Below are positions 3,096 to 63,654 of a stretch of DNA of 64,000 nucleotides, in pieces. The notes below the pieces were generated by a model. That model saw nothing but the letters and a program-made list of their open reading frames with translations. It did not search any database and was not told the origin of the DNA. The stretch's first letter is position 1; the number at the start of each line of letters is the position of its first letter. The stretch comes from a virus: the IMG/VR virus record IMGVR_UViG_3300008267_000148, positions 1-64,000 of that record; one strand, 5' to 3'. Made by a program: the position numbers and the translations under genes.

Positions 3096-4202
3096 TTATC
3101 TTTTATTTTCGTTGATTAGTTTCCAAACTTCCCAATTTATTATGGATTCGTTTTTAACATCAGACGCCATGTCGTATAATTTGGCAATTTTTCTAATCAT
3201 GTTGTTACCAACATAATTCATAATTTTGATTTCATGGTCGATAAATTTTTTAGGGTTTTTTTGATATTTCTGAACGTCGTTAACAAACTTATCAAAATAT
3301 TTACCCTTTTTACCTTCAAACCCTATCATAGCCTCCATGAAGTTAGTAGTTAATCTCCTTCTCATTCTATCACCCATCCAGTTACCAAAATTAATGGCGA
3401 CGAGTCTTATAACATCATCAGCAAGTTCTTCATCACTTTTACCCTCATAAGGAAAATCAAGTCTTTCAAAAAATCGTTTGATTTTGTCCGATTCTTTAAT
3501 TAGGTCATTACGTAATGTTTCATACGTATACCCCCTCATTCTATTTAATCTTTCGTAGGTTCTTGTCGATGTTAAGAACTTATAGAATTGTTGTTTATCA
3601 ATCTCACCAGCCTTAACTAATGCAGCAAACTCAGATGGTCTAACTAAACTTTCAATAGCATTTGCGTAGTAAATGTAATGTATAAACTCATTTACGGGTG
3701 TTATATTTGCAAAACCCTCACTTGATGCAGTTTCATATTTAACTCTTTTAGTTAAAGGTGTTGGTCCAATTTTTCTATTGTCATAAAAATGTTTTAACTC
3801 GTGAGATATACTACCAATATATTCTAATTTATTAGTAATCATATCCTGAACTAAATCCTCGCCAGTAGTATCTGATTTAACAGCATATCTAAATGATAGA
3901 TTGAATGTCGTGGTTGTTAGTTTTTCAACCTTAAAGTCGTTATTTAACTTACTTTTTTCACTAGTTGCCATACCAATCAAGTCCAACTCATCAGTTACAC
4001 CTTCAATATCAATTTCAAAATCAACAGTACTAAATGTTACATCACCTACTTTAAATTCACCTCTAAACTTTTTCTTAAAGTCTTTTAAATCACTAACGTC
4101 GTAATCTTTAGGTATAATCTTTAATATCTTTTCATAAATCTTAATAGCAGTATCAATCTGATTTTCTGGTACACCTAAGGCCTCATTAAATTCTTTTCTC
4201 AT
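3096..4202 (-). CDS. Putative zinc metallopeptidase (HExxH), 368 aa
   Basis: A HELKH motif at residues 134-138, inside a helix preceded by a hydrophobic segment (IGSIS), matches the zincin HExxH signature in which two His bind zinc and Glu is catalytic. A third zinc ligand cannot be assigned by eye. The rest is helical and charged, with no signal peptide. It has its own terminator and a TATTTATG element upstream in the divergent region with the tagged gene at 4250, so late expression is likely. A structural protein with a chance motif remains possible. Confidence 0.65.
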   Translation of the reverse strand: MRKEFNEALGVPENQIDTAIKIYEKILKIIPKDYDVSDLKDFKKKFRGEFKVGDVTFSTVDFEIDIEGVTDELDLIGMATSEKSKLNNDFKVEKLTTTTFNLSFRYAVKSDTTGEDLVQDMITNKLEYIGSISHELKHFYDNRKIGPTPLTKRVKYETASSEGFANITPVNEFIHYIYYANAIESLVRPSEFAALVKAGEIDKQQFYKFLTSTRTYERLNRMRGYTYETLRNDLIKESDKIKRFFERLDFPYEGKSDEELADDVIRLVAINFGNWMGDRMRRRLTTNFMEAMIGFEGKKGKYFDKFVNDVQKYQKNPKKFIDHEIKIMNYVGNNMIRKIAKLYDMASDVKNESIINWEVWKLINENKR

Positions 4203-4633: not shown

Positions 4634-6841
4634 TTATCTTAACACATTAACATAACCACCAATCACTTTTTTATAATCAAAACCAACAGCACTAATTGTC
4701 ATGACCCAATTGTAGATTCCGGCAGGAACTAATTGATAATTATATGTCCCATCCCAACCTTCAAGATGATTGTGACTTTCAAAAATAACTTCACCCCATC
4801 TATTGATAACGACTAAACTATAGTTGTAAGGGTCAAACCCTGAAGTTAATATTGGCGACCAAAGGTTATTGTGTTCATCACCATCAGGTGTAAATGAATT
4901 AGGTACATAGATTAACTCTTCAGGACAATTTTCTACGGTAATCACAGTTTCTTGTTGATTAGAAACACAACCATTGGAATAGTGAACAACAGATAACGTA
5001 AACATACCCTCATCCTCAAAACTTATTGTAAAATTATCTGACTCATAATCATTACTCATCCAAGACCAAACATTATAACCGGGTAAGTTTGAAATCGCAG
5101 TGAATACAACATTAACAGAATCACCCTCACATATCTCGTAAAAAGGGTTATATGGTGAAATAGAATCGAGTATTGGTTGTGGATAAACAACCACATTTGT
5201 TGTTGTGTCAAACATACAACCACTTTGTGTGTACACGTAACTGATGATGTTATTACCAATCGCATTACTTGGATAAAAATCATTACCTATTACTCCGTTA
5301 CCACTAAACACCCCACCAATAGGTGTTCCTTGAAGGGTTGTGAACTCATCATAAGAACAAAATGGTCCTATAGGTTCAATCACGGGTAAAACATTAAATA
5401 CGTTTAAGTCAACCGATATTGGTAAACTTGGGCAGTTATTCCCATCGTAGCCGGTAACTTGGATTCCGCCAGGGATAAACCCATCCCCAATGTTACCCCA
5501 ATTAACATTAACACTATCAGTTCCTTGCCCGTTGTAAATATTACCAACTGATGACCATTGGTAAGTATAACCAACTTGTTCAGGTACTGAGTAAACTTCA
5601 TTATTAGAGTGGTAACAAATAGTGTCGTTATATATAATTGGACCAACAACAGGTATTGGTGGGTTATTTAATATAACATTACTTGATACGGTACAACCCG
5701 CAACATCTGTTATGGTGAATGAATAGTTACCCGAACATAATCCTGTAGGGTTGAAGCCTGTTTGACCACCATTCCATGAAATTGTTTGTACTCCGTTACC
5801 ACCGTTTGGTGAAATGAAAATACTACCATTACAATCACCGAAACAAGTTGGGTTAATATTGAATATTGTTGGGTTTGGTAAATTTGGCGGACCAGGTAAA
5901 ACAAATACGGTATCAGGTCCAAAACCACCTTGTTGTTGATTACAGGTATTCCATCCCGCGTTACATGTGGGATAAACAAAATGACAGGTATATTGAGCAC
6001 CTCCTGCAGGTGGTGTTACGTTAATAGTCGGACCTGTACCTATTGGAATTGGATTACCCACTTGATACCAAGTTAGTGTTGGTGTTACAGTAGGTCCAGA
6101 AGGTGTCCATCTATAAGCATCGTTGTTTGTCACCCATTGTGTTGAGTTTCTACCAGGTGAGGTAATACCAATCGTCCCACCTAAATTATGAATACCTTGT
6201 GTTGCGGTACCGTTCTGCCATTGGATACAAGACGGTTTATTTTGAATATGATTCTCAATATAGTTAGTGGATTCGTAAATAACTATGTGGAATGTTCCTT
6301 GATTACCTGTACAAGAAAACATTGGCATATTTAACCAGCTCACAACTAATTTTCTACATGGAGCAACCCCTTGGACTTGGTATTTAATTTGTCCTCCGAT
6401 ACCAGGATGCCAATCTTGCCAAGGACCCATAATACAATTTTTAGGTACTAAAACATTTCCTGTTGGGATTGGTTGGGATGTAAAAGTTGTTGGTTGACCA
6501 CCACTAAAAGAAATCCAACCATTTGACCCAACATAGAATTGTGTATATGTGTTACCAAAAAAACAAAAATTAAACCCTATTTGAAATGGTCCTTGTTGCG
6601 AATCATCCGTCATGAATAAACTATTCCCATTATTAGTTTGAGCCACGTAAGGAATGTTTGTGACATTATAGTTTGTTGTTTGATTTGGGTTAGCTCCACC
6701 AGGTCCACACTGACTTAAATCAGCGGTTAATGTTGTTGACCCTACACCACAAGGTAATATTTGGTCGGGCCCTAATGACGGACAAAATTGTGAATAAGCA
6801 AAACTTGTTATAAACGTAAATAAAATTAAAAGACTCTTCAT
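4634..6841 (-). CDS. Secreted CHU_C/T9SS-type protein with SprB-like repeat, 735 aa
   Basis: ATG at 6841 gives a clear signal peptide (MKSLLILFTFITSFAYSQ); the longer frame starts with TTG and has none. Residues of the first third resemble the Cys/Gly/Trp-rich domain that often precedes gliding-motility C-terminal domains (NGWISFSGG, CIMGPWQDWHPG). A SprB-like repeat lies near residues 325-395 (PTCFGDCNGSIFI, SWNGGQTGF, TDVAGC). The last 95 residues (VPNSFTPDGDEHNN, INRWGEVIFES, GWDGTYN, PAGIYNW) form a CHU_C domain, a type IX secretion sorting signal. The protein is probably exported and surface-displayed by the host T9SS. A host origin by transfer is likely. Confidence 0.88.
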   Translation of the reverse strand: MKSLLILFTFITSFAYSQFCPSLGPDQILPCGVGSTTLTADLSQCGPGGANPNQTTNYNVTNIPYVAQTNNGNSLFMTDDSQQGPFQIGFNFCFFGNTYTQFYVGSNGWISFSGGQPTTFTSQPIPTGNVLVPKNCIMGPWQDWHPGIGGQIKYQVQGVAPCRKLVVSWLNMPMFSCTGNQGTFHIVIYESTNYIENHIQNKPSCIQWQNGTATQGIHNLGGTIGITSPGRNSTQWVTNNDAYRWTPSGPTVTPTLTWYQVGNPIPIGTGPTINVTPPAGGAQYTCHFVYPTCNAGWNTCNQQQGGFGPDTVFVLPGPPNLPNPTIFNINPTCFGDCNGSIFISPNGGNGVQTISWNGGQTGFNPTGLCSGNYSFTITDVAGCTVSSNVILNNPPIPVVGPIIYNDTICYHSNNEVYSVPEQVGYTYQWSSVGNIYNGQGTDSVNVNWGNIGDGFIPGGIQVTGYDGNNCPSLPISVDLNVFNVLPVIEPIGPFCSYDEFTTLQGTPIGGVFSGNGVIGNDFYPSNAIGNNIISYVYTQSGCMFDTTTNVVVYPQPILDSISPYNPFYEICEGDSVNVVFTAISNLPGYNVWSWMSNDYESDNFTISFEDEGMFTLSVVHYSNGCVSNQQETVITVENCPEELIYVPNSFTPDGDEHNNLWSPILTSGFDPYNYSLVVINRWGEVIFESHNHLEGWDGTYNYQLVPAGIYNWVMTISAVGFDYKKVIGGYVNVLR

Positions 6842-6944: not shown

Positions 6945-6948
6945 AAAT

Positions 6949-9772: not shown

Positions 9773-9808
9773 TAAAAAACCCGAGTTAATCTCGGGTTAA
9801 GCCTTTTT
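9773..9808. terminator. Bidirectional terminator between convergent genes
   Basis: Perfect 8-bp stem AACCCGAG / CTCGGGTT with a 5-nt loop. It is flanked by A6 on the left, which gives a T-run on minus, and by CTTTTTAT on the right. The tagged gene's last codons overlap its edge. Confidence 0.85.
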
Positions 9809-10349
9809 ATTTATATAAAGAACTAAAGATTGTAACATTAACACCAGTCTTATTTGTAATTTGTTCTAAGTAATCTCTTACACAGTCTTCAATCTCACTT
9901 TCAATTTCATATCCTATCTCCTCATCATCGATGGCTTTCTGTAGTTGAAAAGTCTCACCTGTTACAATATTAACCTCGGCATTAGGGTCTTCAGCATCAA
10001 CCAACACATCAACGTAAATGTTCGCATCTTCAATATCGTTAATTGATAGTTCAAACTTAAAATCATAACCACCACAAACCATCCCCCCATCACCAATCTT
10101 GTGTGGGTTCTTAAGTATTAGTTCTTCAGTCATCTTCATTGCGTTTTCATAACCCAAAAACTCTCTAAGATGAGCATAAACATTATTAATATTGGTACCA
10201 TCAAGATTACCTCGTTTAAATCCAAACAAATTAAGGAAGTTTTCATCAACACCAGGTCCGAATCGTTCCCAATATTTTTGAAACATTTTTCTATGTTGTA
10301 GATTTTCTTGAATGGTTTTAACCTGTGATTCTGTTAGTACTAATTTCAT
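9807..10349 (-). CDS. Tagged virion-type protein, 180 aa
   Basis: Starts MKLVLTESQVKTIQENLQ. It has (L/I)-x-E sites at residues 5-7 (LTE) and 13-15 (IQE), the two-site tag found in this group. The rest is soluble, with an acidic C-terminal half and no known domain. A TATTTATA element is 3 nt before the ATG, so the tag must begin exactly here. It ends in the bidirectional terminator. Packaging into the head is inference from the tag. Confidence 0.75.
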   Translation of the reverse strand: MKLVLTESQVKTIQENLQHRKMFQKYWERFGPGVDENFLNLFGFKRGNLDGTNINNVYAHLREFLGYENAMKMTEELILKNPHKIGDGGMVCGGYDFKFELSINDIEDANIYVDVLVDAEDPNAEVNIVTGETFQLQKAIDDEEIGYEIESEIEDCVRDYLEQITNKTGVNVTIFSSLYK

Positions 10350-23049: not shown

Positions 23050-24174
23050 TTATCTACCTAATAATGAACCAATCAATGAAGAAAACGCATCTCCACCAAC
23101 TTTATTTGTCGCTGCTTGTCCAACCATATTACCCATACCTGATTCAGATGGTGGTGGTGGTACTTCACCCATTTCGTTACTCCATGTTTGTTGAGCTTCA
23201 GGTGTCTGAGAATATTGGTCCCATTTTTCTTCAGCATTTGGTACTTGGGACAATAATTCATCAGGACCAATAAAGTTTCCGATACCTAACCAATCTAAGA
23301 AACCTAAATAAGTTTTAGTACGTCTCATTAATGAACGAGTTGCGGGATTACCACCAAATATTCTTGGTACACCAGCGGATATTTTTTGACCTAAAGTCGC
23401 GTCGGACTTCATATATTTCAACCAAGAGTTTTTCACGTCTTTATGACCTCTAAACATTTTACCTTGTTCTTTCTCAAGTTGTTTCATCAACTGAGTTTTT
23501 TCAGCTGAACTTAAACTTTTTTCAACATTTACTAATTTACCGTCTTTAACAACGTTTGTTGGCATTTTAAGTTCACGACTAGCCTTTGTGAAAATACCAA
23601 CAAATTCTTCAACCGCTTTAACCATAGGCATTCCAATACCGGGTACTTTACCAACTGACGCTTTTAAAACATCCATTAATTTAGAACCCCAACTTGGAGC
23701 TTTCTCAACCATTTTGGCAACAGGTCCACCAGCTACTTTAGCGGTTTCTGCTATTTTAACCGCATCACCCGCAACAACCGCACCTCTAAAAGCTTTAGTT
23801 GCGGCACCACCGGCTTTAAGTACCCCAACAACAGGTTTAGCAATTGCATCACCAAGTAATGGGACTACCGATATCCAAGATAAAACCGCGAATAATTTAT
23901 CACCTTGTCTCCAATAACTAACCCCGTTAACTAAATCAACCACACCTGTTGGGTCGAAGATACCTACGATATCACCAACTGTGTTGTACCACTTACTTTC
24001 ATTTAATGTTTTGGCTTTTTCAGGGTAAATGGTTTTTAACATTTCAACAACAATAATCTTGTCATTCTTACTTAAACCATTCCACTTCTCCTCTATGATT
24101 TTACTATATTCTTCGTTATAAATCTCTAGAATTCTATCCTTAACTTGAGATTCCGTTAATTTTTTGCTGGTCAT
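23050..24174 (-). CDS. Tagged virion-type protein with hydrophobic centre, 374 aa
   Basis: Starts MTSKKLTESQVKDRILEIYN (L-T-E at 6-8, I-L-E at 15-17), and a further L-N-E-S sits at 57-60. Residues 66-125 contain FDPTGVVDLVNGVSYWRQGD and a hydrophobic LGDAIAKPVVG region. This recalls pre-toxin or colicin-like membrane segments of phage structural proteins. The C-terminal part is Lys-rich and ends in a Pro-rich segment with PPPPSESG. It may be an internal protein that meets the membrane during ejection, which is inference. A TATTTATA element is 14 nt upstream. Confidence 0.72.
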   Translation of the reverse strand: MTSKKLTESQVKDRILEIYNEEYSKIIEEKWNGLSKNDKIIVVEMLKTIYPEKAKTLNESKWYNTVGDIVGIFDPTGVVDLVNGVSYWRQGDKLFAVLSWISVVPLLGDAIAKPVVGVLKAGGAATKAFRGAVVAGDAVKIAETAKVAGGPVAKMVEKAPSWGSKLMDVLKASVGKVPGIGMPMVKAVEEFVGIFTKASRELKMPTNVVKDGKLVNVEKSLSSAEKTQLMKQLEKEQGKMFRGHKDVKNSWLKYMKSDATLGQKISAGVPRIFGGNPATRSLMRRTKTYLGFLDWLGIGNFIGPDELLSQVPNAEEKWDQYSQTPEAQQTWSNEMGEVPPPPSESGMGNMVGQAATNKVGGDAFSSLIGSLLGR

Positions 24175-40963: not shown

Positions 40964-42625
40964 TTATTGTGTCTTTTGAGTGTAACCCATTAACGATTTC
41001 ATTCTACCAAACTCCTCGTTAATTTTTTGTTTTTGTTTTTCATCAATAGACTCAAGTTTAGCCATGATTTTATCACCATCACCTTCACCTGCAGTATCAT
41101 TTACAACTGGTTGAGGTGATTTATTGTAAGCCTTTCTTTTAATCTTAGCCAACATGTTATCTTTTCTGATTTTATTTCTTTTTTTGTTAACATCAGACTC
41201 ACCAGTGTTAGCCCATTCAGGGTTGTTACCTGTCTTAGATGAACCTTCAATGTTAGAACTAACCCAATCCTCATTAGGTTTGATTTCATCATAGTCAAGG
41301 TTCTCTAAAGCCGCCGCAGTGAAGTTGTCAACATACTCTTCAACAGCACCTGATGGTATGTAAGCTTTTTTATTCATTTTTTCAATCTCACCATTTCCTT
41401 TAGGAAACATTTTAGGGTTAGTTTCGTACTCACCTTTAGAACCGTCTTTTAAATAATCTTTCATTTTTTGTGCCACTGACTTCAAATAATCACTATTCTC
41501 TTTACCGTCTTTATCATGTACTTGTTTATATTTTTCAAGACCTTTAGTAGTACCAACCTTTATGTTACTTTTAACTTCTTTTTCTTCTCTAACAATTTTT
41601 TCAATTAAATCAATCATTTCAGATTCAGTTAATTTAACAGATTTTTTCTTTTTGTGGTCAGCACCTTTAAAACCTTTAATGTTCTTAGCAAAGTTCGCCA
41701 TTTTAACAACGTCAGGATTATCTGATTTCATCGCTTTGTCAACACATTCTTTGGTTACTTCACCATCCTCAGATGCTAAACCATTTCTCTTACACCAAGA
41801 ACCAAATTTACCTTCAGTTCCTTTCTTTTCCATTTTATTAGTTGCTTTTTGAATGAATTTTTCATCTTTAGATTCTTTGGTAACTCTAAATTCTTTACCA
41901 TCAACTTCAAATTCATCATCACCACCTGCCTTCGCCTTTGCTAAAGCACCTGTGAACGCATTACCTTCTTTTTCTTCACGCTTTCTTAACATTTTAAAGT
42001 CTTCAGAGTCAATCTTACCATTATGGTTTTTATCTAATTTTTTCTGACCACCGTGTAACTTCTCATTCATTGAGAACTTGTATTTGTCAAGACCCATTTT
42101 GTCTGTTCCACAGAATTTTCTAGTTCTATCGTCCTCAGGTCCAAAGTTATCCATATGATATTTACAAGACTCTTCGTCTTCAACTTCCTCCTCATCCTCA
42201 AACTCAACATCCTCTTCTTCCGCAACATAATCAAACGGTGAACCAGCAGGATTAAATTTAGTTGACATATATAAGTTTTGTTTTGTTCCACACTCACATG
42301 TTTCACCTTCTTCATACATCTCACCTTCCATAGCCATGGGTTTACCACATTGTTCACACATTTCACCGTCACCTTCTTCTAGTTCATCGATGTCATAATC
42401 GTCACCAAAGTAATCTTCATCATCATCTTCGTATGACATATCAGAAGACATTAAATCTTCAATATCATCATCGGACATCTTTGAAAGGTTTAATTTACCG
42501 AATTTAGGGTGACCGTCGTCCATTCCACCTAATTCGTTTAATTTAGTTGCAATACCGTTGGCTTTGTCCTCTAAAGTCTCGGTGATTACTTTAGAGATTA
42601 TACTATCTAAATTATTTTTTCTCAT
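40964..42625 (-). CDS. Tagged acidic virion-type protein with zinc, EF-hand and internal tag, 553 aa
   Basis: N-terminus MRKNNLDSIISKVITETLED has an I-T-E site at 14-16. C90, C93, C110 and C112 form a zinc-ribbon-like group. DKNHNGKIDSED (198-209) fits an EF-hand/dockerin calcium loop. GKFGSWCKRNGLA near residue 272 is a motif I have seen in other phage virion proteins. A second, internal tag (VKLTESEMIDLIEKIVREE, 330-348) suggests proteolytic maturation into two parts. It has a TATTTATA element 13 nt upstream. Likely internal or scaffold-type head protein. Confidence 0.75.
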   Translation of the reverse strand: MRKNNLDSIISKVITETLEDKANGIATKLNELGGMDDGHPKFGKLNLSKMSDDDIEDLMSSDMSYEDDDEDYFGDDYDIDELEEGDGEMCEQCGKPMAMEGEMYEEGETCECGTKQNLYMSTKFNPAGSPFDYVAEEEDVEFEDEEEVEDEESCKYHMDNFGPEDDRTRKFCGTDKMGLDKYKFSMNEKLHGGQKKLDKNHNGKIDSEDFKMLRKREEKEGNAFTGALAKAKAGGDDEFEVDGKEFRVTKESKDEKFIQKATNKMEKKGTEGKFGSWCKRNGLASEDGEVTKECVDKAMKSDNPDVVKMANFAKNIKGFKGADHKKKKSVKLTESEMIDLIEKIVREEKEVKSNIKVGTTKGLEKYKQVHDKDGKENSDYLKSVAQKMKDYLKDGSKGEYETNPKMFPKGNGEIEKMNKKAYIPSGAVEEYVDNFTAAALENLDYDEIKPNEDWVSSNIEGSSKTGNNPEWANTGESDVNKKRNKIRKDNMLAKIKRKAYNKSPQPVVNDTAGEGDGDKIMAKLESIDEKQKQKINEEFGRMKSLMGYTQKTQ

Positions 42626-43550: not shown

Positions 43551-43967
43551 TTAGTTAGTTATTAATAAATATGATGTGGTTAATACACCAACAACAGAAA
43601 TTACTTTATAGATAATACCCTCAAATTTGTATCTTTTAATTTCTTTTTGTAATTCCTTGTTTAAGTCAGTTGACACTTTAAGTTGTTCTTGTTGTTTTCC
43701 AATAATAATTTGGTTATTACTATCTTTTTGAGTTAATAGACTAATTGTCGTATCTTTTAAAATTTCTCTTTGTTGGGTCATCAACAATTTATCTTGAGTT
43801 AACTTTAACTCTTGTACACACCCATCATACTTTACAAGGTCTTTAGCAATCTGTTTCGCAACCTCTTGGCTGATTACAACCTTAGTGGTGTCTTTACTGA
43901 TACCTGTCTGTGAAAAACAACTCAAGCTCGTTAGGGCGAAGAGTGTCAATACTATTAACTTTTTCAT
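43551..43967 (-). CDS. Exported coiled-coil protein, spanin-like candidate, 138 aa
   Basis: A signal peptide (MKKLIVLTLFALTSLSCFSQ) is followed by a coiled coil (residues about 30-115) and a C-terminal hydrophobic segment. The start is inside the end of the 115-aa membrane coiled-coil gene in a different frame, as in Rz/Rz1 pairs. A true lipobox is not present, and the C-terminal hydrophobic segment is unlike Rz1. A role in envelope disruption is therefore only a proposal. Confidence 0.6.
   Translation of the reverse strand: MKKLIVLTLFALTSLSCFSQTGISKDTTKVVISQEVAKQIAKDLVKYDGCVQELKLTQDKLLMTQQREILKDTTISLLTQKDSNNQIIIGKQQEQLKVSTDLNKELQKEIKRYKFEGIIYKVISVVGVLTTSYLLITN
43564..43571 (-). promoter_or_regulatory. 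TATTTATT element
   Basis: Coding strand A-TATTTATT, 14 nt before ATG 43549, inside the end of the exported coiled-coil gene. Confidence 0.5.
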
Positions 43968-45456: not shown

Positions 45457-46236
45457 TTATTTAGTATAACTTAATCTTCTTACCTCGTCATCAGTTGTTG
45501 TTGTAGTTGTTATTTCCTCAGTATCTACGTTTCGACCTTCTTCGTCATAAACTTCACCTACTTCATTAATAAAATATTTGACAGGTACCTCTTTAATAAC
45601 TTCTACAGGGACTTCAACAATTTTTTCAACTTCTTTAATTACCTCAACAGGAACTTCAACAATTTTTTCAACTTCTTTAATTACCTCAACAGGAACTTCA
45701 ACAATTTTTTCAACTTCCTTAATTACCTCAACAGGAACTTCAACAATTTCTTTTTCACCCACATTCTCATATTCGTTTTCAGTGTATTTCACAAAGAAAT
45801 GTAACGACGTTAATGAAATAACCGGTAGTAATCCACCTTCAAGAAATGCTAACCATCTTTTAATTGATACAATATCATTAATATCAGACCCAAAACTTTC
45901 CCATACAGGCCCTGTTAATTCCACCCATGACTTGAATAATTCGCTATTCGCATCAATTTCTTTGTATGAAAAGAATATATTACCAATCATTTGGACAAAA
46001 GTGACTAATCCAAACATAAACCACACCCCACCTTTAATCTTATTAGTGGCCGCAATAAGAGCAGTCATCGCACCCACCTCAATAGCTATTGATAAGTAAA
46101 TTGCCCATGACAATGGGTTTGATAGGTCATACCACGATACTACGTGAGATATAGAGATGCCCGCAACCAACAAAATAGGTACTAAAAACATAGACCTAAT
46201 TGGGTTGCTCTTAATCCAATTCCAAATTAACTTCAT
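45457..46236 (-). CDS. Membrane protein with E-V-I-K-E repeats, 259 aa
   Basis: About four hydrophobic segments lie in residues 15-150 (SMFLVPILLVAGISI, then AIYLSIAIEVGAMTALIA and others). Then comes a tandem 14-residue repeat VEVPVEVIKEVEKI in about four copies (residues about 163-218) and an acidic, Thr-rich tail. I recall similar proteins in Bacteroidetes phages. The repeat could be an extended stalk or coiled coil. The same repeat type occurs in the protein at 51125. It lies in the lysis region between amidase and a small anchored protein. Confidence 0.75.
   Translation of the reverse strand: MKLIWNWIKSNPIRSMFLVPILLVAGISISHVVSWYDLSNPLSWAIYLSIAIEVGAMTALIAATNKIKGGVWFMFGLVTFVQMIGNIFFSYKEIDANSELFKSWVELTGPVWESFGSDINDIVSIKRWLAFLEGGLLPVISLTSLHFFVKYTENEYENVGEKEIVEVPVEVIKEVEKIVEVPVEVIKEVEKIVEVPVEVIKEVEKIVEVPVEVIKEVPVKYFINEVGEVYDEEGRNVDTEEITTTTTTDDEVRRLSYTK
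45584..45752 (-). repeat. 42-bp tandem coding repeat
   Basis: About four copies of a 42-bp unit with few differences, encoding 14 residues each of the VPVEVIKEVEKIVE type. High DNA identity between copies implies recent expansion or gene conversion. Confidence 0.85.
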
Positions 46237-46238
46237 TA

Positions 46239-46529
46239 TTATTTACCAAGCTTAGATAGTTCGTTATCAATTTCAGTCTGTCTATTAACATCCATCATTT
46301 TTCTATCTGTTGATTGAATCATTCTTTTCTCTGATTTCAACCCTTCAATTTTTATTTCTTTTCTTAACTCAATTTCTAATGAGTCAATTTTTTTATTAGT
46401 TACTTCGATATTATCCTGAACCTTACCGATTCTACCGTTAGTTGAGCAAGTCTTTAAGAAGACAACTAATACCAATAATGTGGTGATTCTTACACCCCAT
46501 TTATCTAAAAAATTTAAAATACTTTTCAT
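46239..46529 (-). CDS. Small membrane-anchored coiled-coil protein, 96 aa
   Basis: ATG 46529 (MKSILNFLDKWGV) is chosen over a TTG two codons before. One hydrophobic segment (ITTLLVLVVFLKTC) is followed by a charged helix with heptad spacing. The topology is spanin- or holin-accessory-like. It is next to the membrane protein with repeats and ahead of the amidase, in the lysis region. Confidence 0.62.
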   Translation of the reverse strand: MKSILNFLDKWGVRITTLLVLVVFLKTCSTNGRIGKVQDNIEVTNKKIDSLEIELRKEIKIEGLKSEKRMIQSTDRKMMDVNRQTEIDNELSKLGK

Positions 46530-46557
46530 AGTCAATTATTTAATATAGTATAAAAGT

Positions 46558-46600: not shown

Positions 46601-47401
46601 TTACATGTAATCGAATAGTATCGAACTATCGTTCCGTAATTTTCGAAGAGCCTTTTCTTTAATCTGTCTGACTCTTTCTTTAGTTAGGTTAAAATCACCA
46701 CCAATATCTTCCAATGTTCGAGGAGTTCCTGATAACCCAAAATAGTCTTCAATGATTACTCGTTCACGTTCATCCAAGTATTCTAAAAGATTCATCAACT
46801 TAGACTTCAACATATCTTTCGTGTTGAAAATCTCGTCGGGCATTTCAGCATCAGGGTTTTGGATGATGTCAATTAATGTATCACCATCTTCATTGATGTG
46901 CATATCCAAATCAATCATCGATGGTAGGTTTTGGAACTTATCATCTAACACTCCGCCAGTGTTCTCAATTTCTTTCTTCGCTCTGTGTAAGTCTTGTACT
47001 ACGTTAACGGGTAGTCGAATAGTCCTAGCATTGTCGTTGAGTGACTGAAGAATGGATTGTTTAACCCACCACACCGCGTATGAGATAAAACGTAGGTCTT
47101 TTGACCAATCAAAGTTTTTAATTGCTTTCATCAATCCAAGATTACCTTCAGCAATTAAGTCAGGAAAATCTAACCCTTGATTTTGATATTGTTTTGCAAC
47201 TGTGATAACGAAACGTAAGTTACCCTCAAGGATTTCTTTATGTACCGCATCAATTTGTCTTTGTGTTAGGGTCCCCGACTTCATAAGTTCAGCTAACTCC
47301 TTTTCACGTTCAGGAGTCATAACTTTAATTTTACGAATGTCTTTCAAGTAAACTTGAATCTCGTCTTGATTAATCGGAATACCAGCGTTTTTTTCTTTCA
47401 T
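46601..47401 (-). CDS. RNA polymerase sigma-70 family factor, 266 aa
   Basis: Region 1.2 (DEIQVYLKDIRKI), region 2 (GNLRFVITVAKQYQNQGLDF, then DLIAEGNLGLMKA), 2.3-2.4 (RFISYAVWWVKQSILQSL, ARTIRLP; residues 104-131), a short region 3 and region 4.2 (TLEDIGGDFNLTKERVRQIK, residues 229-248) are all present. This is an RpoD-like, short group 1/2 type. It would bind host core RNA polymerase. It is a likely reader of the TATTTATN element, which is inference. A TATCTTTG lies 48 nt upstream. Confidence 0.95.
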   Translation of the reverse strand: MKEKNAGIPINQDEIQVYLKDIRKIKVMTPEREKELAELMKSGTLTQRQIDAVHKEILEGNLRFVITVAKQYQNQGLDFPDLIAEGNLGLMKAIKNFDWSKDLRFISYAVWWVKQSILQSLNDNARTIRLPVNVVQDLHRAKKEIENTGGVLDDKFQNLPSMIDLDMHINEDGDTLIDIIQNPDAEMPDEIFNTKDMLKSKLMNLLEYLDERERVIIEDYFGLSGTPRTLEDIGGDFNLTKERVRQIKEKALRKLRNDSSILFDYM

Positions 47402-48007: not shown

Positions 48008-50377
48008 TTATTGTGAGACGTAACTAATATTCTCTTCTTTTCTAATTTTAATAACGTTGTCCGCCCAGTTATTCACTAATGGGTTGTGTGTGATAACAAA
48101 AATCTTTTCAAAATATTCTTTAATTTTTGTAAAAAATTCGGATACCATTTCTAAGTTATCATTAGATATTTTGCCAAAGACCTCATCGAAAACGATAATG
48201 TTTGGTTTTGGTAAAGAACAAATTTTACTTAATACTGCTCTCAAAGCTAATGACGCAATAGTTCTTTCATAACCAGAACCTGATGACATTAATTTTTCAA
48301 CTTGAGTATTATTATCAATCATTAAGAACTCAACCTCATTTTTATCATTAATCCTAACTTCTAATCTAAAGTGAGAACTATCTTCAAGTAATCTTTGTAA
48401 TTCACTATTGATTAATGGCATCATGGTTTTCATGATTAACTTTGAAACTCCGTTTTTACCATATATCTCTAAGAACACTTTGTAAATCTTTTCTTTTTCA
48501 GCCTCTTCAGCAATCTTAACAATATTTTTCTTATTGGTATCGATTTTTTCGGTTAAAGATTTAATCTGGTAAGTGTTGTTATCAATATTTCTTTGGGTCT
48601 GAGTTTTCTCTCTTTCAAGTTCTTCAAGTCGATTACCAGCCTTAATTAATAAAGCGTCTGTTTTATTGTTCTCAACAATTTTATCCTGAACCTCATTGTA
48701 TCGGTCAAGTTTAACTTTCAAACCTTCAATCTTAAGGTCGATACTCTCAATACTAACTTCATACTTTTCTTTGATAAGTTTGTTTTTTTCATACTCATCA
48801 AACTCTTTTTTAAGTTGTGTGAAACCTTGTTCTTTACTGATTAAATCCTTCATTAACCCCTCTTTTTGGGTTTTTTGCATGATTAATCCGTCAAGTTCAG
48901 CAATTTTGGCGTTAGTAATTGCTGCGTTCATTAACTCAATACCACAGTGTTCACATTTGATTCCACCCTCAACTGAAGACTTTAACGTATTAATTGCGGA
49001 TATTTCCGTATCAATACGTATCACTTCTTTAAGAAGGTTGTTAATTTCATCCTTAACCTCGTCGTGTTTGTCCTCATGATAGAATGAAGATGGTTCAACA
49101 ACTTTAACTTCATTTAATTGTGAAACGACCTTTCGTTTATCCAAATCCAACCCATTAATGTCTTCTTGAATTTTGGTTGGGGATAATAAACTAATTTCCT
49201 TATCGATATTATGCTTACCCTTCAGTAAGTTATCACGATAATCTTGACCTTTAACAATTTTTTCACCGGTTTCAATTAACGATTTTTTATATTCCTCAAC
49301 ACCATTGTTTAGTTCAACAATCTGACCTTCATATGTTTCAATGTCGGTTTTTAATTGTTCACTATTGTAGATGTTGGACATCATCGTTTTTGAAAATTCA
49401 CTATAGATTTCTTTAGCGGCATCTTCCTTACGTTTCAAGAAATCCAATCCCATGAAACGAGATAATACCTGACCACGAGCGGTTGGTTTTGAGTCAATTA
49501 AATCCTCAAGATTGGTTGCTGTAGTCAAAATTGTCATTAAGAAGTCCTCTTTAGAACCGATAGATGTTTTGATGAAAGCTTCAGTTTCTCGTCTTTGTTC
49601 ACCAGTGAAGTTTAACAAACTACCATCTGAAAGTTTTTTGAAGAAGTCTAATTCGGTTTTTACATTCCAATCACCACTTTTGGCCTTTTTACGTTCAATA
49701 TTACGGACGATGATATATTCTTCACCATCAATAATAATCTCACCTTTAACCTTAACGTGGTTCTTATCAGTAAACCTGTTAAATACTTCTTCAGCTTTAG
49801 ATGTTTTTGTCGTTTCATTAAAGAACAAAAACAATAAAAGGTCAACACTCAGAACCGTCTTACCACCAAAGTTAGGTGGGTTCGATTCAACAACACTAAT
49901 ACCATCACACTTCTCAAAATCAATCTTTTGGTTCTCACCATAAGAAAGGAAGTTTGAAAACTCGATGTTCTTAATAAACCATCTTTTAAATGGTGTTGCC
50001 TCAGTCTGAGATAAAACTAGTTTGTTATCCACAACAGAATTCAATTTGAGTATCTCATCCAAGTAATCCTCCTTACCTTTAGACTCCAAGTATGACTTAA
50101 CCAAACCAATCTGATAGTTTTCATCCAAAATATTGAATGAGATGTCTACATTGTGTGTGGTATCTTCACTCACTTTAGTCTTAGTGATAACATTTACATT
50201 TGTTGTCTGGTATTTCTTTTGGAAGTAGTGACGAACACTTTTAATCTTCTCTTGCGTAAAATTTTCCGCACTATCTTCCCATACCACTTGTACATATGGA
50301 TTCTCGAACTTTGTAATATCCAAATCTTTTATCATTATTTTATAATTGTATTCTATTGGGGGATTAAACAAATCCAT
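48008..50377 (-). CDS. Recombination endonuclease subunit, gp46/SbcC/Rad50-like, 789 aa
   Basis: Walker A NPPNFGGKT lies near residue 165, after RWFIKNIEFSNFLSYGE. Long coiled coils flank a CxxC zinc hook (KCEHCGIEL). The C-terminal part has an ABC-type signature (SGSGYERTIASLALRAV) and Walker B IIVFDEVFG. About 130 extra N-terminal residues precede the ATPase. With the SbcD/gp47 protein it should process DNA ends for recombination-dependent replication. Its ATG overlaps the preceding stop as TAATG. Confidence 0.95.
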   Translation of the reverse strand: MDLFNPPIEYNYKIMIKDLDITKFENPYVQVVWEDSAENFTQEKIKSVRHYFQKKYQTTNVNVITKTKVSEDTTHNVDISFNILDENYQIGLVKSYLESKGKEDYLDEILKLNSVVDNKLVLSQTEATPFKRWFIKNIEFSNFLSYGENQKIDFEKCDGISVVESNPPNFGGKTVLSVDLLLFLFFNETTKTSKAEEVFNRFTDKNHVKVKGEIIIDGEEYIIVRNIERKKAKSGDWNVKTELDFFKKLSDGSLLNFTGEQRRETEAFIKTSIGSKEDFLMTILTTATNLEDLIDSKPTARGQVLSRFMGLDFLKRKEDAAKEIYSEFSKTMMSNIYNSEQLKTDIETYEGQIVELNNGVEEYKKSLIETGEKIVKGQDYRDNLLKGKHNIDKEISLLSPTKIQEDINGLDLDKRKVVSQLNEVKVVEPSSFYHEDKHDEVKDEINNLLKEVIRIDTEISAINTLKSSVEGGIKCEHCGIELMNAAITNAKIAELDGLIMQKTQKEGLMKDLISKEQGFTQLKKEFDEYEKNKLIKEKYEVSIESIDLKIEGLKVKLDRYNEVQDKIVENNKTDALLIKAGNRLEELEREKTQTQRNIDNNTYQIKSLTEKIDTNKKNIVKIAEEAEKEKIYKVFLEIYGKNGVSKLIMKTMMPLINSELQRLLEDSSHFRLEVRINDKNEVEFLMIDNNTQVEKLMSSGSGYERTIASLALRAVLSKICSLPKPNIIVFDEVFGKISNDNLEMVSEFFTKIKEYFEKIFVITHNPLVNNWADNVIKIRKEENISYVSQ

Positions 50378-54186: not shown

Positions 54187-55089
54187 TTAATATTTCATCT
54201 TATAATAGTAATTGTCTATCTGACCTTTCAAGTCACAGACATCTTTATCGGGCGGTAATTTCAGGATTTTTAATCTCCCATACAAATCACCACCATTTAA
54301 TTCATTATATAATTTCATTCCATCTTTAAACGCATCTCCGTCTAACGCAATAGTTACAGTACCTTTAGATTTAAGATATAAACTATCAAACAATAGTGAA
54401 CTCATGTGTTTACCTAACATTGGAATACTATTAGGTAAAAAGAACCCGTCAAAGACACCCTCAACTAAAAATATATCTTCATCCCAATTTATCAGGTTCT
54501 CGTTGAAGATGATTTTGTCTTTCTCAGCTTCAGGGTTTTTATATTTTGCACGGGTATTTGGGTCCCAACTTCGAGCAATATAATAATTTAAATTACCATT
54601 CAAGTCATAAGATGGTACGACAATCCTACCTTTATGAGAACCTTTATCACAAAAACCGATACCATATTTTTCAATCATCTCGTCAGTTATCCCTCGACTA
54701 CTCAGATAATTATATGCTTGTCGTCTAACAGGATATACGGGTGTTGAGTCTTTAAATAATGTGAAACTTTCAGGTAGTTTTAATTTTGGTTTTTTCTTTT
54801 CAACAGGTTTGTCATCTTCAGGTTGTAAAACTTTATATATTTTTTTCTGTTTCCGATTACCAAAACTATCAAATAATTTTCCTAACGGACCTTTTGTGTT
54901 GTTTACATCGCCACAACTCCAACATTTATAAACATGATGGTGGTAATTAACCTCTAAGTTTCCTTTATTCCTACCTTCATCGCATACGGGACAGTCAAAG
55001 GCGATTTGGCCTTTGGACTCATAGTGTTGTTTTTCGTCACCTAAGATTTCTCTCAGTAACTCAACTAATATTTCCGCATCATCAGACAT
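54187..55089 (-). CDS. DNA primase, DnaG type, 300 aa
   Basis: A CHC2-like zinc finger (C33, C36, C56, C59 with CPVC and CWSCG), a central RGITDEMIEKYGIGF helical part, and a TOPRIM domain (IFLVEGVFDGF near residue 210 and TIALDGDAFKDG near 250) make a compact primase. It lacks a fused helicase. It would lay RNA primers for lagging-strand synthesis with a helicase encoded elsewhere. Confidence 0.93.
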   Translation of the reverse strand: MSDDAEILVELLREILGDEKQHYESKGQIAFDCPVCDEGRNKGNLEVNYHHHVYKCWSCGDVNNTKGPLGKLFDSFGNRKQKKIYKVLQPEDDKPVEKKKPKLKLPESFTLFKDSTPVYPVRRQAYNYLSSRGITDEMIEKYGIGFCDKGSHKGRIVVPSYDLNGNLNYYIARSWDPNTRAKYKNPEAEKDKIIFNENLINWDEDIFLVEGVFDGFFLPNSIPMLGKHMSSLLFDSLYLKSKGTVTIALDGDAFKDGMKLYNELNGGDLYGRLKILKLPPDKDVCDLKGQIDNYYYKMKY

Positions 55090-59183: not shown

Positions 59184-61646
59184 TTAGAAATCAAACTTAA
59201 CCAAGAACTGTTGTATTCCTTGTCTAACAACAGGTGATTGTAGCTTAGATATAATCATAAGGTTCTTGTCTGAATCGTAAAGACCAATTTCAGTAATATA
59301 TGGTGTTAACGTGTCATTCCATGTTGGGTTTGATGACGTTTGAAACTCCGCTTGACCTAAATTAACTTTATATCTCATCTCGTAAATAGTTGCCTGAATA
59401 TCAGTTTCAATGTTTCCGTAGAAATAATATTCGTCACCAAAATTAAGTTGTGGTGTTGTGACATTATTCTCAGTTAAGTTAATGTAATCACTTAAATCAT
59501 AATAATCAGCATTGTCATACATATCTTGTGTGATAACAAACGTAGACCCCGTTAATGCGTCTTGAGTAATGTATCCACCTATGGTTGACCCACTAATAAC
59601 ATTGGTCATGTCAATAATTTTCCATTCATCAGCATCAGGTCTTGTATCACCAGATACTTTTTGACAAATAATTTCAAATTTATCAGCATAATACCCATTT
59701 GGTACATAACAATAGGTTGGGCATAACGTTGTTGTGGTTGTCGTCGTAGTTGTTGTGTCGGTTGGTGTTACTAAACAACCAAACTCAGCCCCAAATCTTA
59801 TACCCACATTTTGAGAAGTAATTGGTTGACAATCAATGTTAGGACCTTGTATTTTTTGATAATAGTTACAATGTAATGAATTAGTAAACGATTGGGTATT
59901 ACTTAATCTATATGTAACATAAAGATATTCTGTTGTTGCGGATAACATACCGACAACAGATTCTTCAGTTGTGTTACAAGTATTAGGTGTTACTAATGTC
60001 AACTTAGGTGCCGGTAAAGTCCAGTTTCTGTTTGACTTGTAAGATAATGCGGCAATAATTTCCTCATCGTCAAAAATAACAATTTGTGAATCAGGGAATA
60101 CTTTACCCACACGATTAGGAATTCCATTATCGTTAGGGTTATTATCCCATAAATGGTAGTAACGTAATCCCGGTACATTCATATCAGGATTTTTAGTTGA
60201 CTTAATGTATTGTACCTCAAATAAACCGAACTCATCAAATCCTGGTGGGTCAACCCAAAATGTTTGTCCATTACAACATGCAGGGTTTTTATGCCACATT
60301 AACCAAGGGATATGAATTCTAAAGTTTCTAGCTTGACCTGTAGTATCGGCAATATTTTGATATGGTTCAAATGCGAACTTCTCACCATAAAAGAAATCAA
60401 TTGTGTTATTAGTATAATGAACAATGGCAATAGCTTTTTGGTCTTTTGGTTCAACAATAACTTTCTCATCAAATGAGTTGTAGTAATATGTTGCACTAGT
60501 ATCTGTTTGACCACTATTTGACATGTATCCGAAGTACTCTTTTGACCCCATGAATCCAACAGAACCAAATTGGTCATACCCTTTATATGTGTTGTTATAT
60601 AAACCTGCAGGATTTTCAGACCATGGAATATTCATATTCCAAACATTAACATTGAACTCGTCAGTATAACAAAGTGATTCGTAATTGATAACGTTTTGAT
60701 TCCAATGTTGCCATGGTGTAACTGAGTCATATAATGAACTCATATTTGGCGGATAGATTAATACTCTTGAGTAACATCCTGAACCTAATGAAGAAAAATC
60801 AGGTGTTGCTCTGTCTAAAGTGTACTTATCTAAACAAATATCAACAATACGATAAGTCATCATAGAGTAACAACTATGTATTGAAATTACACATTGGTCG
60901 GGTAATGGTGTTGGGCAAGGATTTGTTGGTTCAGGAACACAACAAGTTGCTGATGGTGTTGGTGTCGGTGTTACCGTAGCACATGGTAAATTGTTAGTTG
61001 CCGATGGCGTAGGTGTTGGTGTTGTATGACCATTAGATGCGGTCATTGTCATTGTTGGTGTAGGTGTAGGTGTAGGTGGTGTAATACAAGAACAATTGTA
61101 TTGACCATGACCATCATAATAGATAGTAATTAAATCACCAACCGCAGGTAATCTTACAATATCGGTATTACATCCTGAATACGATAACTGAATGGTTGTA
61201 CCACCAGTTAAACTTGACATATCAACAATATAATTAGAATTTATCACATATTGGTCATTAGTCCAAGCACTCCAATTAATAGTAGTTGCCGAAGTATTAC
61301 CTGTGAAAAATCCTCTCATCGCCGCTCTATTATAAACAGGGCTAACAATTGAGTCCATAAATGGTATTCCATAAGTGTTACCACTAACTCCATCAACATA
61401 GAATGGGTATTTTACATATTGTTTGTTTGATTGTGGTGAACCCGCTGAATTTTGAGAATTAAAACTTGGTTCTAAAACAAAAGTATTGGCTTGATTGTAT
61501 GATGAAGGTAATGAATTATACGATACTTCCCCATCACCAATTTGGAAATATGATATATTAAACGTACCTTGAGATAACTTCTGTCTTGCGGTATCGGTTA
61601 ACCTTGTGTTTATCAACCCTGAAGTATTTTTTAAAATATAACTCAT
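59184..61646 (-). CDS. Baseplate/tail-type protein with Thr-Pro linker, 820 aa
   Basis: Residues 15-45 (NTRLTDTARQKLSQGTFNIS, then YFQIGDGEV) are a typical start of tail or baseplate proteins in this phage group as I recall. A TPTPTPTMTMT linker lies near residue 195-225. Beta-rich domains with Trp, Tyr and paired Cys follow, then TTTTTTTTTT near 640 and a final beta domain (QATIYEMRYKVNLGQAEF). A TATTTATA element is 3 nt upstream. A structural role in the adsorption apparatus is likely. Confidence 0.75.
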   Translation of the reverse strand: MSYILKNTSGLINTRLTDTARQKLSQGTFNISYFQIGDGEVSYNSLPSSYNQANTFVLEPSFNSQNSAGSPQSNKQYVKYPFYVDGVSGNTYGIPFMDSIVSPVYNRAAMRGFFTGNTSATTINWSAWTNDQYVINSNYIVDMSSLTGGTTIQLSYSGCNTDIVRLPAVGDLITIYYDGHGQYNCSCITPPTPTPTPTMTMTASNGHTTPTPTPSATNNLPCATVTPTPTPSATCCVPEPTNPCPTPLPDQCVISIHSCYSMMTYRIVDICLDKYTLDRATPDFSSLGSGCYSRVLIYPPNMSSLYDSVTPWQHWNQNVINYESLCYTDEFNVNVWNMNIPWSENPAGLYNNTYKGYDQFGSVGFMGSKEYFGYMSNSGQTDTSATYYYNSFDEKVIVEPKDQKAIAIVHYTNNTIDFFYGEKFAFEPYQNIADTTGQARNFRIHIPWLMWHKNPACCNGQTFWVDPPGFDEFGLFEVQYIKSTKNPDMNVPGLRYYHLWDNNPNDNGIPNRVGKVFPDSQIVIFDDEEIIAALSYKSNRNWTLPAPKLTLVTPNTCNTTEESVVGMLSATTEYLYVTYRLSNTQSFTNSLHCNYYQKIQGPNIDCQPITSQNVGIRFGAEFGCLVTPTDTTTTTTTTTTLCPTYCYVPNGYYADKFEIICQKVSGDTRPDADEWKIIDMTNVISGSTIGGYITQDALTGSTFVITQDMYDNADYYDLSDYINLTENNVTTPQLNFGDEYYFYGNIETDIQATIYEMRYKVNLGQAEFQTSSNPTWNDTLTPYITEIGLYDSDKNLMIISKLQSPVVRQGIQQFLVKFDF

Positions 61647-61649
61647 GTT

Positions 61650-61657
61650 TATAAATA
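61650..61657 (-). promoter_or_regulatory. TATTTATA element
   Basis: Coding strand A-TATTTATA-AAC-ATG, 3 nt before ATG 61646. Confidence 0.5.
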
Positions 61658-61675
61658 TGAAGTATTATTATTTTA

Positions 61676-62950
61676 TTATGAAATTGATTCTTCAATTCCC
61701 ATTGTCGCTGATGAGTCAATCACAACATCACAACAAGAACATCTGTTTATAACTGCGTTTGTAATAACATATGTGTCAACAGCATTTGCCACTAAACATG
61801 ATGATGGTACAAAACTCACAGTTGTTGTAGTATTAATCTCAACCACATCACCACTTCCGATGATAATTGATGACCAATTATCTGTAATAGTATTCACATA
61901 TACAGACCCACTTTGACAACCCGGAAGAGTGTTTGGTATTGTAGAACTTCCACTACTTTGAGAAGAAACTAGTTGTGGTATTCCATTTTTAGTTAAAACA
62001 CTATTAGTCGCTAATGAAGCGGTAAATGGATTAGGTGCTGACTTAAATACATTTAAATGACTTAGATTAACCGTTATGTCAACACCAGGTGGTAATGGAG
62101 GTGTTACACTTACCGTTACGGTATTCTGTTCTGTTGTTGAGTTGGATGTACTTCCTATCGTTGTTGAATACAATAAGTTAACCGTATACGTCACAGGTGT
62201 GACTGAGTTTGTTAACAAAGCCCCTAAACTATATATTTGATTAGTACTATCTTTAACAACTACGGAGTAATTACCTTCACAAAGATTATTATATAATGGC
62301 TTGTTTGAGAACCATGTCACCCCATTATCGATTGAGAATTGATATGGTGGGACTCCACCTGATGGTATTATTGATATTGAACCATCACACTCACAACTTG
62401 GTTGATTAATCGACATTGTGAATGTAACAGGTGTTGTTTGACTGCACTCACCTGAATATGAAATTAAATTACCTATACCTCCACCTACGGTGTACCATCC
62501 TGATAATGGTGGATAAGGGGTTGCACTTAAGACTGAATATGTTAATGAACCTCCACTAAGTGTCCACTTATTTGTTGTCGTATTAAAGTAGATTGAATAA
62601 GTACTATCGTCGGAAATCCAAGATTGGTACCCACCGTATAACCCGTCACTATTGAAATGGACAAAGTCGTCACCACTAATCTGTAAACAAAAATCATATG
62701 TTAATTGTTTATCTTGTACGGGTATTGATATGTTTGTCCCACATAATGTATTAACCACATAAAGAACCGTAGTTCCATTAGGTACCATAACAAAAACACC
62801 GGTAGATATTTGTGAATAAGTGATACCTGTTGCGGGTGACACTGAATTATATAAATTAGCAACGTGAGCACTATCTATTGAGGTATAATAGACCTCATAC
62901 GGACCTGGTGATGTACCACCTGTTAATATCACATTATAATACTGACTCAT
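61676..62950 (-). CDS. Tail-type protein with SprB-like repeat, 424 aa
   Basis: Near residues 180-240 is a SprB-like repeat (QPSCECDGSISIIPSGG, then PPYQFSIDNG and CEGNYSVVVKDS), the beta module known from the gliding adhesin SprB of Flavobacterium. The N-terminal half repeats the small-domain style of the 71-aa protein (GTSPGPYEVYYTS). There is no signal peptide and no CHU_C end, so it is likely a virion adhesin rather than a T9SS cargo. TATAAATA, the reverse of the usual element, precedes its ATG. Confidence 0.72.
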   Translation of the reverse strand: MSQYYNVILTGGTSPGPYEVYYTSIDSAHVANLYNSVSPATGITYSQISTGVFVMVPNGTTVLYVVNTLCGTNISIPVQDKQLTYDFCLQISGDDFVHFNSDGLYGGYQSWISDDSTYSIYFNTTTNKWTLSGGSLTYSVLSATPYPPLSGWYTVGGGIGNLISYSGECSQTTPVTFTMSINQPSCECDGSISIIPSGGVPPYQFSIDNGVTWFSNKPLYNNLCEGNYSVVVKDSTNQIYSLGALLTNSVTPVTYTVNLLYSTTIGSTSNSTTEQNTVTVSVTPPLPPGVDITVNLSHLNVFKSAPNPFTASLATNSVLTKNGIPQLVSSQSSGSSTIPNTLPGCQSGSVYVNTITDNWSSIIIGSGDVVEINTTTTVSFVPSSCLVANAVDTYVITNAVINRCSCCDVVIDSSATMGIEESIS

Positions 62951-62964
62951 TTTATTTATATCTA

Positions 62965-63654
62965 TTATTTACTACAAGTACAATCTTTATGACTACTTTG
63001 GAATAAGTTAGTAACTAATCCGTTTTGGTATTGTATTACCTCGTAACATCCTGAAAGGATAGTACCGCTAGGCCATTTTATTTTAATATAATCACCAATA
63101 CTTGCTAATCCGTTATTAGGAATAACTCGTAAATCAAGGTTATCGTCACAATTTCTAACCAATAATCCATTAGGTTTAGTTGGTGTTGGGGTAGGTGTTT
63201 TAGTTCTTGTTAATGTCGGAGTATTGGTTGGTGTTGGCGTGCTTGTTGTACCTGGAGTTGTTGTTAATGTTGGGGTTGGTGTTAATGTTTTGGTTGGGGT
63301 TGGTGTTAATGTTCTCGTTAATGTTGGTGTTGGTGTTGGTTGAACTGAGAAATTAACCGCGATAACACCAAAATCACAATCGGTTGTTGCGGTTAAGGTA
63401 CATTCAGTAATAGCACTAAAATCATTATAATAATCAATAACCGTGGCAGTATATGTACCAACACTTAAGTTATTAATTGCCGGAGATATTGTACCGTTAC
63501 TCCAAATAATAGAATATGGTGGTGTACCTCCTGTAATTGATACTGTTAATTGTCCGTCTGAAGCGACAGGTGAAGATGGATTTACAGCAATACATTCAAC
63601 TTCCATAGGGAAGATTGTGACTACATTACATTCATTTTGAATTTGTGAACCCAT
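62965..63654 (-). CDS. Tail-type protein: SprB-like domain plus Thr-Pro linker, 229 aa
   Basis: An N-terminal SprB-like module (PVASDGQLTVSITGG, PPYSIIWSNG, LSVGTYTATVIDYY; about residues 30-90) is followed by a TPTPT/TLTRT linker of about 60 residues and a small C-terminal domain with two Cys. It forms a row with the 424-aa and 820-aa proteins, 14 nt from the former, so the three probably build one tail structure. A TATTTATA element lies 15 nt upstream. Confidence 0.72.
   Translation of the reverse strand: MGSQIQNECNVVTIFPMEVECIAVNPSSPVASDGQLTVSITGGTPPYSIIWSNGTISPAINNLSVGTYTATVIDYYNDFSAITECTLTATTDCDFGVIAVNFSVQPTPTPTLTRTLTPTPTKTLTPTPTLTTTPGTTSTPTPTNTPTLTRTKTPTPTPTKPNGLLVRNCDDNLDLRVIPNNGLASIGDYIKIKWPSGTILSGCYEVIQYQNGLVTNLFQSSHKDCTCSK

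Follow-up and report, generated by a model that had tools for sequence, protein, structure and literature searches.

We identified a phage gene whose product is likely exported by the host type IX secretion system (T9SS) and displayed on the surface of the infected cell; this reading concerns the route, not its effect, and is drawn from the sequences of the gene and its relatives. The gene lies in a stretch of 64,000 nucleotides (the window, meaning the whole of the DNA analyzed) that makes up most of a 64,829-base virus record. In window coordinates, an intact open reading frame of 735 amino acids occupies positions 4634..6841 on the minus strand, with an ATG start at 6841 and a stop at 4634-4636. 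A TTG start at 6946 is mechanically possible, and we rejected it because it would add 35 residues ahead of the signal peptide that are absent from relatives. The protein contains 22 cysteines and 12 Lys/Arg versus 46 Asp/Glu residues, and no hydrophobic or membrane segments other than the signal peptide were found in it. The predicted features of the gene are as follows.

4634..6841, minus strand: complete gene for a T9SS type B cargo, with full-length relatives in viral contigs
6791..6841, minus strand: Sec signal peptide, residues 1-17 (MKSLLILFTFITSFAYS), with cleavage before Gln18 (from the sequence and from Gln at +1 in viral homologs)
5867..6790, minus strand: Cys-rich head, residues 18-325, with a nidogen-like domain at about residues 76-225 (from alignments, profile comparison, and a structure model)
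4922..5866, minus strand: Ig/PKD-like stalk, residues 326-640, variable among phages (PKD_6 match)
5759..5854, minus strand: SprB-like repeat, residues 330-361 (22.7 bits, below the family cut-off)
4637..4909, minus strand: CHU_C or type B T9SS C-terminal sorting domain, residues 645-735 (PF13585, TIGR04131)

Does this protein carry the signals of a type IX cargo? Matches to PF13585 (CHU_C; 43.2 bits, E 4.3e-11, cut-off 27) and to TIGR04131 (44.5 bits, E 1.3e-11, cut-off 35) span residues 645-718 of 735, at the extreme C terminus. Since both curated cut-offs (Pfam and NCBIfam) are passed, we regard the predicted type B sorting domain as genuine. Type B cargos hold five conserved motifs (A-E) within their last 100 residues (PMC12618676). 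For comparison among viruses, we used the 80 contigs most like the window out of the 135 that carry a relative of the cargo gene; 73 of these copies are complete. The C-terminal motifs of the viral family itself are kept in 72 or 73 of the 73 complete homologs of this best 80 of 135, and its conserved blocks are PNxFTPDGD, NRWGE, WDGTY, GxYxW, and a terminal GxVxxxR. The signal peptide was called from sequence pattern and conservation, not by a predictor, and it is followed by Gln at +1 in every one of the 80 viral homologs (again the best 80 of 135). In Bacteroidota, Gln at +1 is the residue expected after cleavage by signal peptidase I (the "Q-rule").

The first-pass annotation had described a phage gene for a type IX cargo with a signal peptide, an SprB-like repeat, and a CHU_C domain. 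The intact frame, the two above-cut-off sorting domains, and the invariant Gln agree with the description as a whole, and within the domain set the signal peptide (as a sequence pattern) and CHU_C stood. The SprB repeat did not: its match is weak and falls short of the family cut-off of 28 bits. Above-cut-off SprB repeats occur in two fibre-like proteins of the window, at 61676..62950 and 62965..63654 (minus strand), one of which has PT-rich linkers. Because both of these proteins are without a signal peptide, an SprB repeat alone is no sign of secretion, and we rejected it as evidence for export. A PKD_6 match at residues 399-464 of the cargo protein (26.3 bits) lies barely above its cut-off of 25.

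We then asked whether the gene belongs to a phage at all. The genes that bear on this question are the following.

46601..47401, minus strand: phage RNA polymerase sigma factor (phrog_351, E 2.8e-54)
48008..50377, minus strand: SbcC-like recombination protein of phages (phrog_77, E 7e-42)
54187..55089, minus strand: phage DNA primase (phrog_47, E 1e-43)
59184..63654, minus strand: three fibre-like proteins without signal peptide, two of them with SprB repeats (the control for the SprB argument above)

Further genes of the window encode an exonuclease, DNA methyltransferases, and an endolysin-like protein. Terminase and sheath genes were looked for in the window fragment and not found, and no tail genes adjoin its cargo gene. 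The gene's head and CHU_C domain belong to bacterial families, as they would if the gene sat on a host chromosome that entered the record by contamination or misassembly. We consider this extremely unlikely and reject it, since the window carries phage sigma factor, primase, SbcC-like, endolysin-like, and fibre-like genes, its gene order is retained in two other contigs (L048 and L049, the only ones among the neighbourhoods compared), and full-length relatives adjoin sheath and tube genes or share a contig with terminase. In 9 of the 17 phage records searched, TerL is on the same contig as the cargo gene. The flanks are thus viral, as the virus record itself and its phage genes indicate, and the possibility raised by the first-pass annotation that they might prove to be host chromosome can be set aside.

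Three other observations were made in the window. A neighbour of the cargo gene at 3096..4202 (minus strand) has a HELKH metalloprotease-like motif, and relatives of it lie near the cargo gene in L007, L010, L011, L048, L049, and L059. A small protein at 43551..43967 (minus strand) has a signal peptide (FSQTGIS) and lies near membrane open reading frames at 45457..46535; it is perhaps lysis- or spanin-like. An N-terminal motif resembling MKxxRLTESEL..LI..LLxEE recurs on otherwise different phage proteins (28253..29449, 23050..24174, 9807..10349, and many relatives) and is perhaps a capsid-targeting or cleavage signal.

The cargo gene is widespread among viruses. In addition to the 135 viral contigs with a relative found in one scan, further ones came up in a later scan, and a full-length copy (53% identical) is present in LR745206.1, an uncultured phage of 634,780 bases. 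A search of 50,697 phage records gave matches in three only, all uncultured or metagenomic. A published Bacteroidetes host prediction covers phages of more than 634 kb and bears on the host of the window contig only indirectly (PMC7162821). Large phages of the same kind frequently carry other CHU_C or type A cargo; type A cargo scored above cut-off in 8 of 17 phage records. Some phage proteins are already annotated in databases as "Gliding motility-associated, C-terminal domain." Additional phage CHU_C families (L190, L192, L195, L199, L200, and others) include a 187-amino-acid form with a single module between signal peptide and CHU_C, as well as proteins of 300-1040 amino acids. The earlier impression that CHU_C cargo is rare in phage genomes finds no support in these numbers, nor in published phage T9SS cargo (PMC7468147, PMC6949934).

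Where did the gene come from? Using patterns derived from the phage sequences, we scanned bacterial and archaeal genomes, one per species for 84,980 species, and obtained 132 relatives. Nearly all of the 80 that we kept are labelled Bacteroidota; the contigs of a few are labelled Pseudomonadota, perhaps through binning errors. Next to the nearest bacterial relatives lie genes that, judged by eye from their N-termini, look like pcrA, infC/thrS, and carotenoid genes. In a quick tree of the head (144 rows), the viral sequences form one clade (SH-aLRT 99), and in a careful tree (67 rows) this clade is recovered with UFBoot 100 and SH-aLRT 98 and appears in 100% of bootstrap trees. Its nearest outgroups are Bacteroidota chromosomal sequences, in keeping with the host origin suggested earlier for the gene. 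No bacterial sequence was found inside the viral clade in the scan of 84,980 species; because the scan patterns came from phages, such a sequence would probably have surfaced.

The bacterial relatives resemble the viral family in head (54-67% identical), stalk, and, where complete, CHU_C, and differ from it in being mostly longer, at about 1,050 amino acids (L084-L095). For the two that were compared (L084 and L085), the C-terminal domains share only 28-46% identity with their viral counterparts. The simplest reading is that the gene was apparently captured once, from a Bacteroidota chromosome, by an ancestor phage. Viral copies of other origin may exist, since the viral set took in only the 80 contigs that most resemble the window. 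On the head tree, tail-located versus other contexts require 6 changes, at least 3 of them forced by well-supported branches, and close homologs (73-75%) are without common neighbours. This mismatch between context and tree, together with the unshared neighbours, suggests that the gene moved between phages or within phage genomes. We propose that a single capture would have been followed by transfer between large tailed-phage lineages, with the gene kept under strong selection.

Conservation is highest in the head, far above that of the stalk and the C-terminal domain, and alignments of relatives show the head to be near-invariant. Pairwise dN/dS over ten pairs, with synonymous sites partly saturated, was about 0.05-0.17 for the head versus about 0.14-0.45 for the stalk, which points to strong purifying selection on the head. 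In an hhalign comparison, a profile of the head matched three bacterial NIDO proteins with probability 97 and E 1.2e-10 over 143 columns; these bacterial proteins also carry CHU_C. The window protein gave no match to the Pfam NIDO model (PF06119), so the head is filed as nidogen-like only; 12 of 70 relatives matched that model weakly (E up to 10 allowed; best E 3e-4). From these comparisons, the head is predicted to be a divergent nidogen-like domain. The structure model of the head is confident (pLDDT 92, pTM 0.86). Foldseek of the head against the PDB returned no solved structure below E 0.01, and we rejected its assignment to a known solved fold on that ground. Whole-chain fold searches returned matches to the Ig stalk with poor TM-scores, and by profile and fold the stalk resembles the repeats of the grappling-hook protein GhpA. 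Two bacterial proteins (L225 and L226, from the genome of L097) combine an above-cut-off NIDO domain with PKD-like modules and CHU_C.

A nidogen-like head on a GhpA-like stalk makes a stalked surface adhesin probable as an architecture. Could adhesion also be the function? Exported by the same route, the head might stick infected cells or debris to other cells, matrix, or surfaces, drawing new hosts near the burst. The conservation of the head, so far above that of stalk and C-terminal domain, suits the binding of a constant ligand, and bacterial relatives bear the same head, mostly in longer proteins. However, Ig-like stalks are common in such proteins, the ligand is putative, and the gain for a lytic phage is speculative. 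We therefore see adhesion as possible, if somewhat unlikely.

The position of the gene bears on another alternative. Of 49 non-redundant loci, 20 place the gene downstream of the sheath (phrog_23) and on the same strand as the tail genes; there it has the tail tube gene (phrog_4542) on one side and, on the other, a tail-terminator-like gene (a weak match) or the baseplate hub gene (phrog_150). One potential explanation is that the protein forms part of the tail or baseplate, its signal peptide and CHU_C domain being leftovers or aids to host attachment. We find this very unlikely: a signal peptide with Gln at +1 throughout the homologs would remove the protein from the cytoplasm, the site of tail assembly; outside these 20 loci, the window included, the gene is without adjoining tail genes; and the tail-located copy stands behind a terminator-like hairpin that follows the tube gene, resembling an inserted unit.

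The upstream regions suggest when the gene is expressed. Of 75 window genes, 17 (including 59184..61646, 62965..63654, and 40964..42625) have the heptamer TATTTAT in the 40 nt upstream of them, versus 1.15% of random stretches, an enrichment of about 20-fold. In relatives, where the background is 1.8%, it precedes 23 of 28 sheath genes, 18 of 19 tube genes, and 12 of 12 copies of a 780-residue tail-module gene, and we interpret it as a probable late-promoter element. Against the same background, it lies within 40 nt upstream of 18 of 28 standalone copies of the cargo gene. It was found before none of the 20 tail-located copies, and the exact heptamer was not found upstream of the window cargo gene, so that late timing rests on the relatives and on position. 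A moron, an insert transcribed separately, would bring its own promoter and terminator in among structural genes; around the tail-located copies the terminator-like hairpin was seen and the TATTTAT motif was not. Late synthesis of the cargo protein is what these patterns suggest. Other genes of the window show TATCTTTGTA-like, host-type upstream sequences.

How would the protein reach the cell surface? At the T9SS translocon, PorP/SprF-like shuttles pick up type B cargos, which then remain attached to them at the cell surface (PMC9143113, PMC12618676, PMC12635249). No PorP/SprF shuttle (PF11751) was found in the window record or in 16 other phage records, two of them larger than 630 kb; as a positive control, the family was present in 7 of 7 related bacterial genomes, at 8-20 copies each. 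With no shuttle gene in the phage records tested, a host shuttle would be used. The cognate shuttle gene is commonly adjacent to its cargo gene, and 3 of 12 Flavobacterium johnsoniae type B cargos are without an adjacent one (PMC12618676), so the lack of a shuttle match is compatible with membership in type B. In the F. johnsoniae work, complex prediction recovered the known cargo-shuttle pairs (PMC12618676). Identities among C-terminal domains within one phage gave no clear signal of a common shuttle. We propose that the cargo would be made late in infection, that Sec would carry it into the periplasm with cleavage of the signal peptide before Gln18, and that the type B C-terminal domain would direct it across the outer membrane via the host T9SS. 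The protein would then stay on the surface, held by this domain to a host PorP/SprF-like shuttle, with the Ig/PKD stalk holding the nidogen-like head outward from the cell. We infer actual export, shuttle use, late timing, and effect from these sequence patterns; the surface protein of the first-pass annotation is, in this sense, strongly predicted.

What might the phage gain? The gliding machinery is believed to include the receptors of flavobacterial phages (PMC7345892), and its main adhesin, SprB, is itself a type B cargo, which favours shuttle competition or masking. We tentatively suggest that the cargo occupies the shuttles of gliding adhesins and covers the surface, thereby keeping progeny and competitors from re-adsorbing to the cell or its debris. 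Two points count against blocking. The conservation of the head is unlike that of a part facing variable receptors or phage fibres, and a head that hardly varies points to an unvarying ligand rather than to an arms race with receptors. In addition, known exclusion proteins are often early (PMC9586334), at odds with a protein made late. Among the effects, we infer that shuttle competition and surface masking are the most likely, with adhesion next; superinfection exclusion, receptor masking, and altered gliding, each named earlier as a possible benefit, are conjectural as particular functions.

Some phage proteins join a signal peptide directly to CHU_C, at about 107-116 amino acids (L169:509-859(-) in LR756502.1; L166:895-1218(+) in LR745206.1), and the same layout occurs in L186, L198, L184, L185, and L220. 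These passenger-less proteins are possible secretion or shuttle decoys. Could the cargo protein itself be a decoy that saturates the PorP/SprF shuttles or the T9SS translocon, so that host adhesins or enzymes are no longer exported, with the head mattering little? Passenger-less proteins in two phages above 630 kb and several viral contigs, as well as cross-talk in shuttle pairing (PMC12618676), are consistent with this idea. Yet the head, needless for a pure decoy, is the most conserved part here, and we judge the idea unlikely. More broadly, large Bacteroidota phages might take over host type IX export late in infection, their type B cargos (some passenger-less) competing for PorP/SprF shuttles, stripping the receptor gliding adhesins, and replacing them with a phage adhesin; we regard this general scheme as rather doubtful. 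Returning to display of the cargo by way of the host T9SS, large viruses of Bacteroidota that carry the gene probably remodel the exterior of the infected cell late. The family offers a clean, conserved, and widespread example in which phages would draw on the type IX export route peculiar to Bacteroidota, and what lytic phages place on Bacteroidota surfaces becomes testable with one gene in a standard Flavobacterium strain. Such a test would connect phage receptors, gliding adhesins, and secretion. A signal peptide with Gln at +1 plus CHU_C is also a simple sequence signal for finding such genes in viral genomes.

Full-text literature searches, mostly outside subscription journals, returned nothing on type B T9SS cargo in phages. 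As far as searched, a conserved type B family across many large phages, its single viral clade, and its position in the tail module are new, as are the upstream motif common to virion genes and the passenger-less sorting domains. The phage T9SS cargo reported before is mainly type A. The closest precedent is Cryophage (Bellas et al. 2020, PMC7468147), in which phage genes with T9SS sorting domains were likewise suggested to be exported by the host and a role in superinfection or competition was proposed. Unlike the family described here, which is type B and consists of one conserved gene across many phages, Cryophage has three type A genes (an endoglucanase, a glycoside hydrolase, and a PA14 protein) that vary between phage variants. 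CrAss-like cluster 2 phages of Bacteroidetes also have open reading frames with T9SS sorting domains near structural genes; in the available part of that account, these are mentioned in passing and tied to BACON-domain proteins, without a nidogen-like head, a tree, or an analysis of sorting type (PMC6949934). The T5 protein Llp is similar as a phage-encoded envelope protein that alters host adsorption, an analogy of function only, since Llp is an early periplasmic lipoprotein that acts on FhuA and is not T9SS dependent (PMC9586334). In the SprB/SprF system of F. johnsoniae, SprB resembles the predicted phage cargo in being displayed on the surface through the T9SS and in carrying repeats and a type B C-terminal domain (PMC9143113, PMC12618676, PMC12635249). 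SprB differs in its very large size, in its role as a gliding adhesin, and in having a dedicated shuttle, SprF, whereas the phage records tested are without a shuttle gene.
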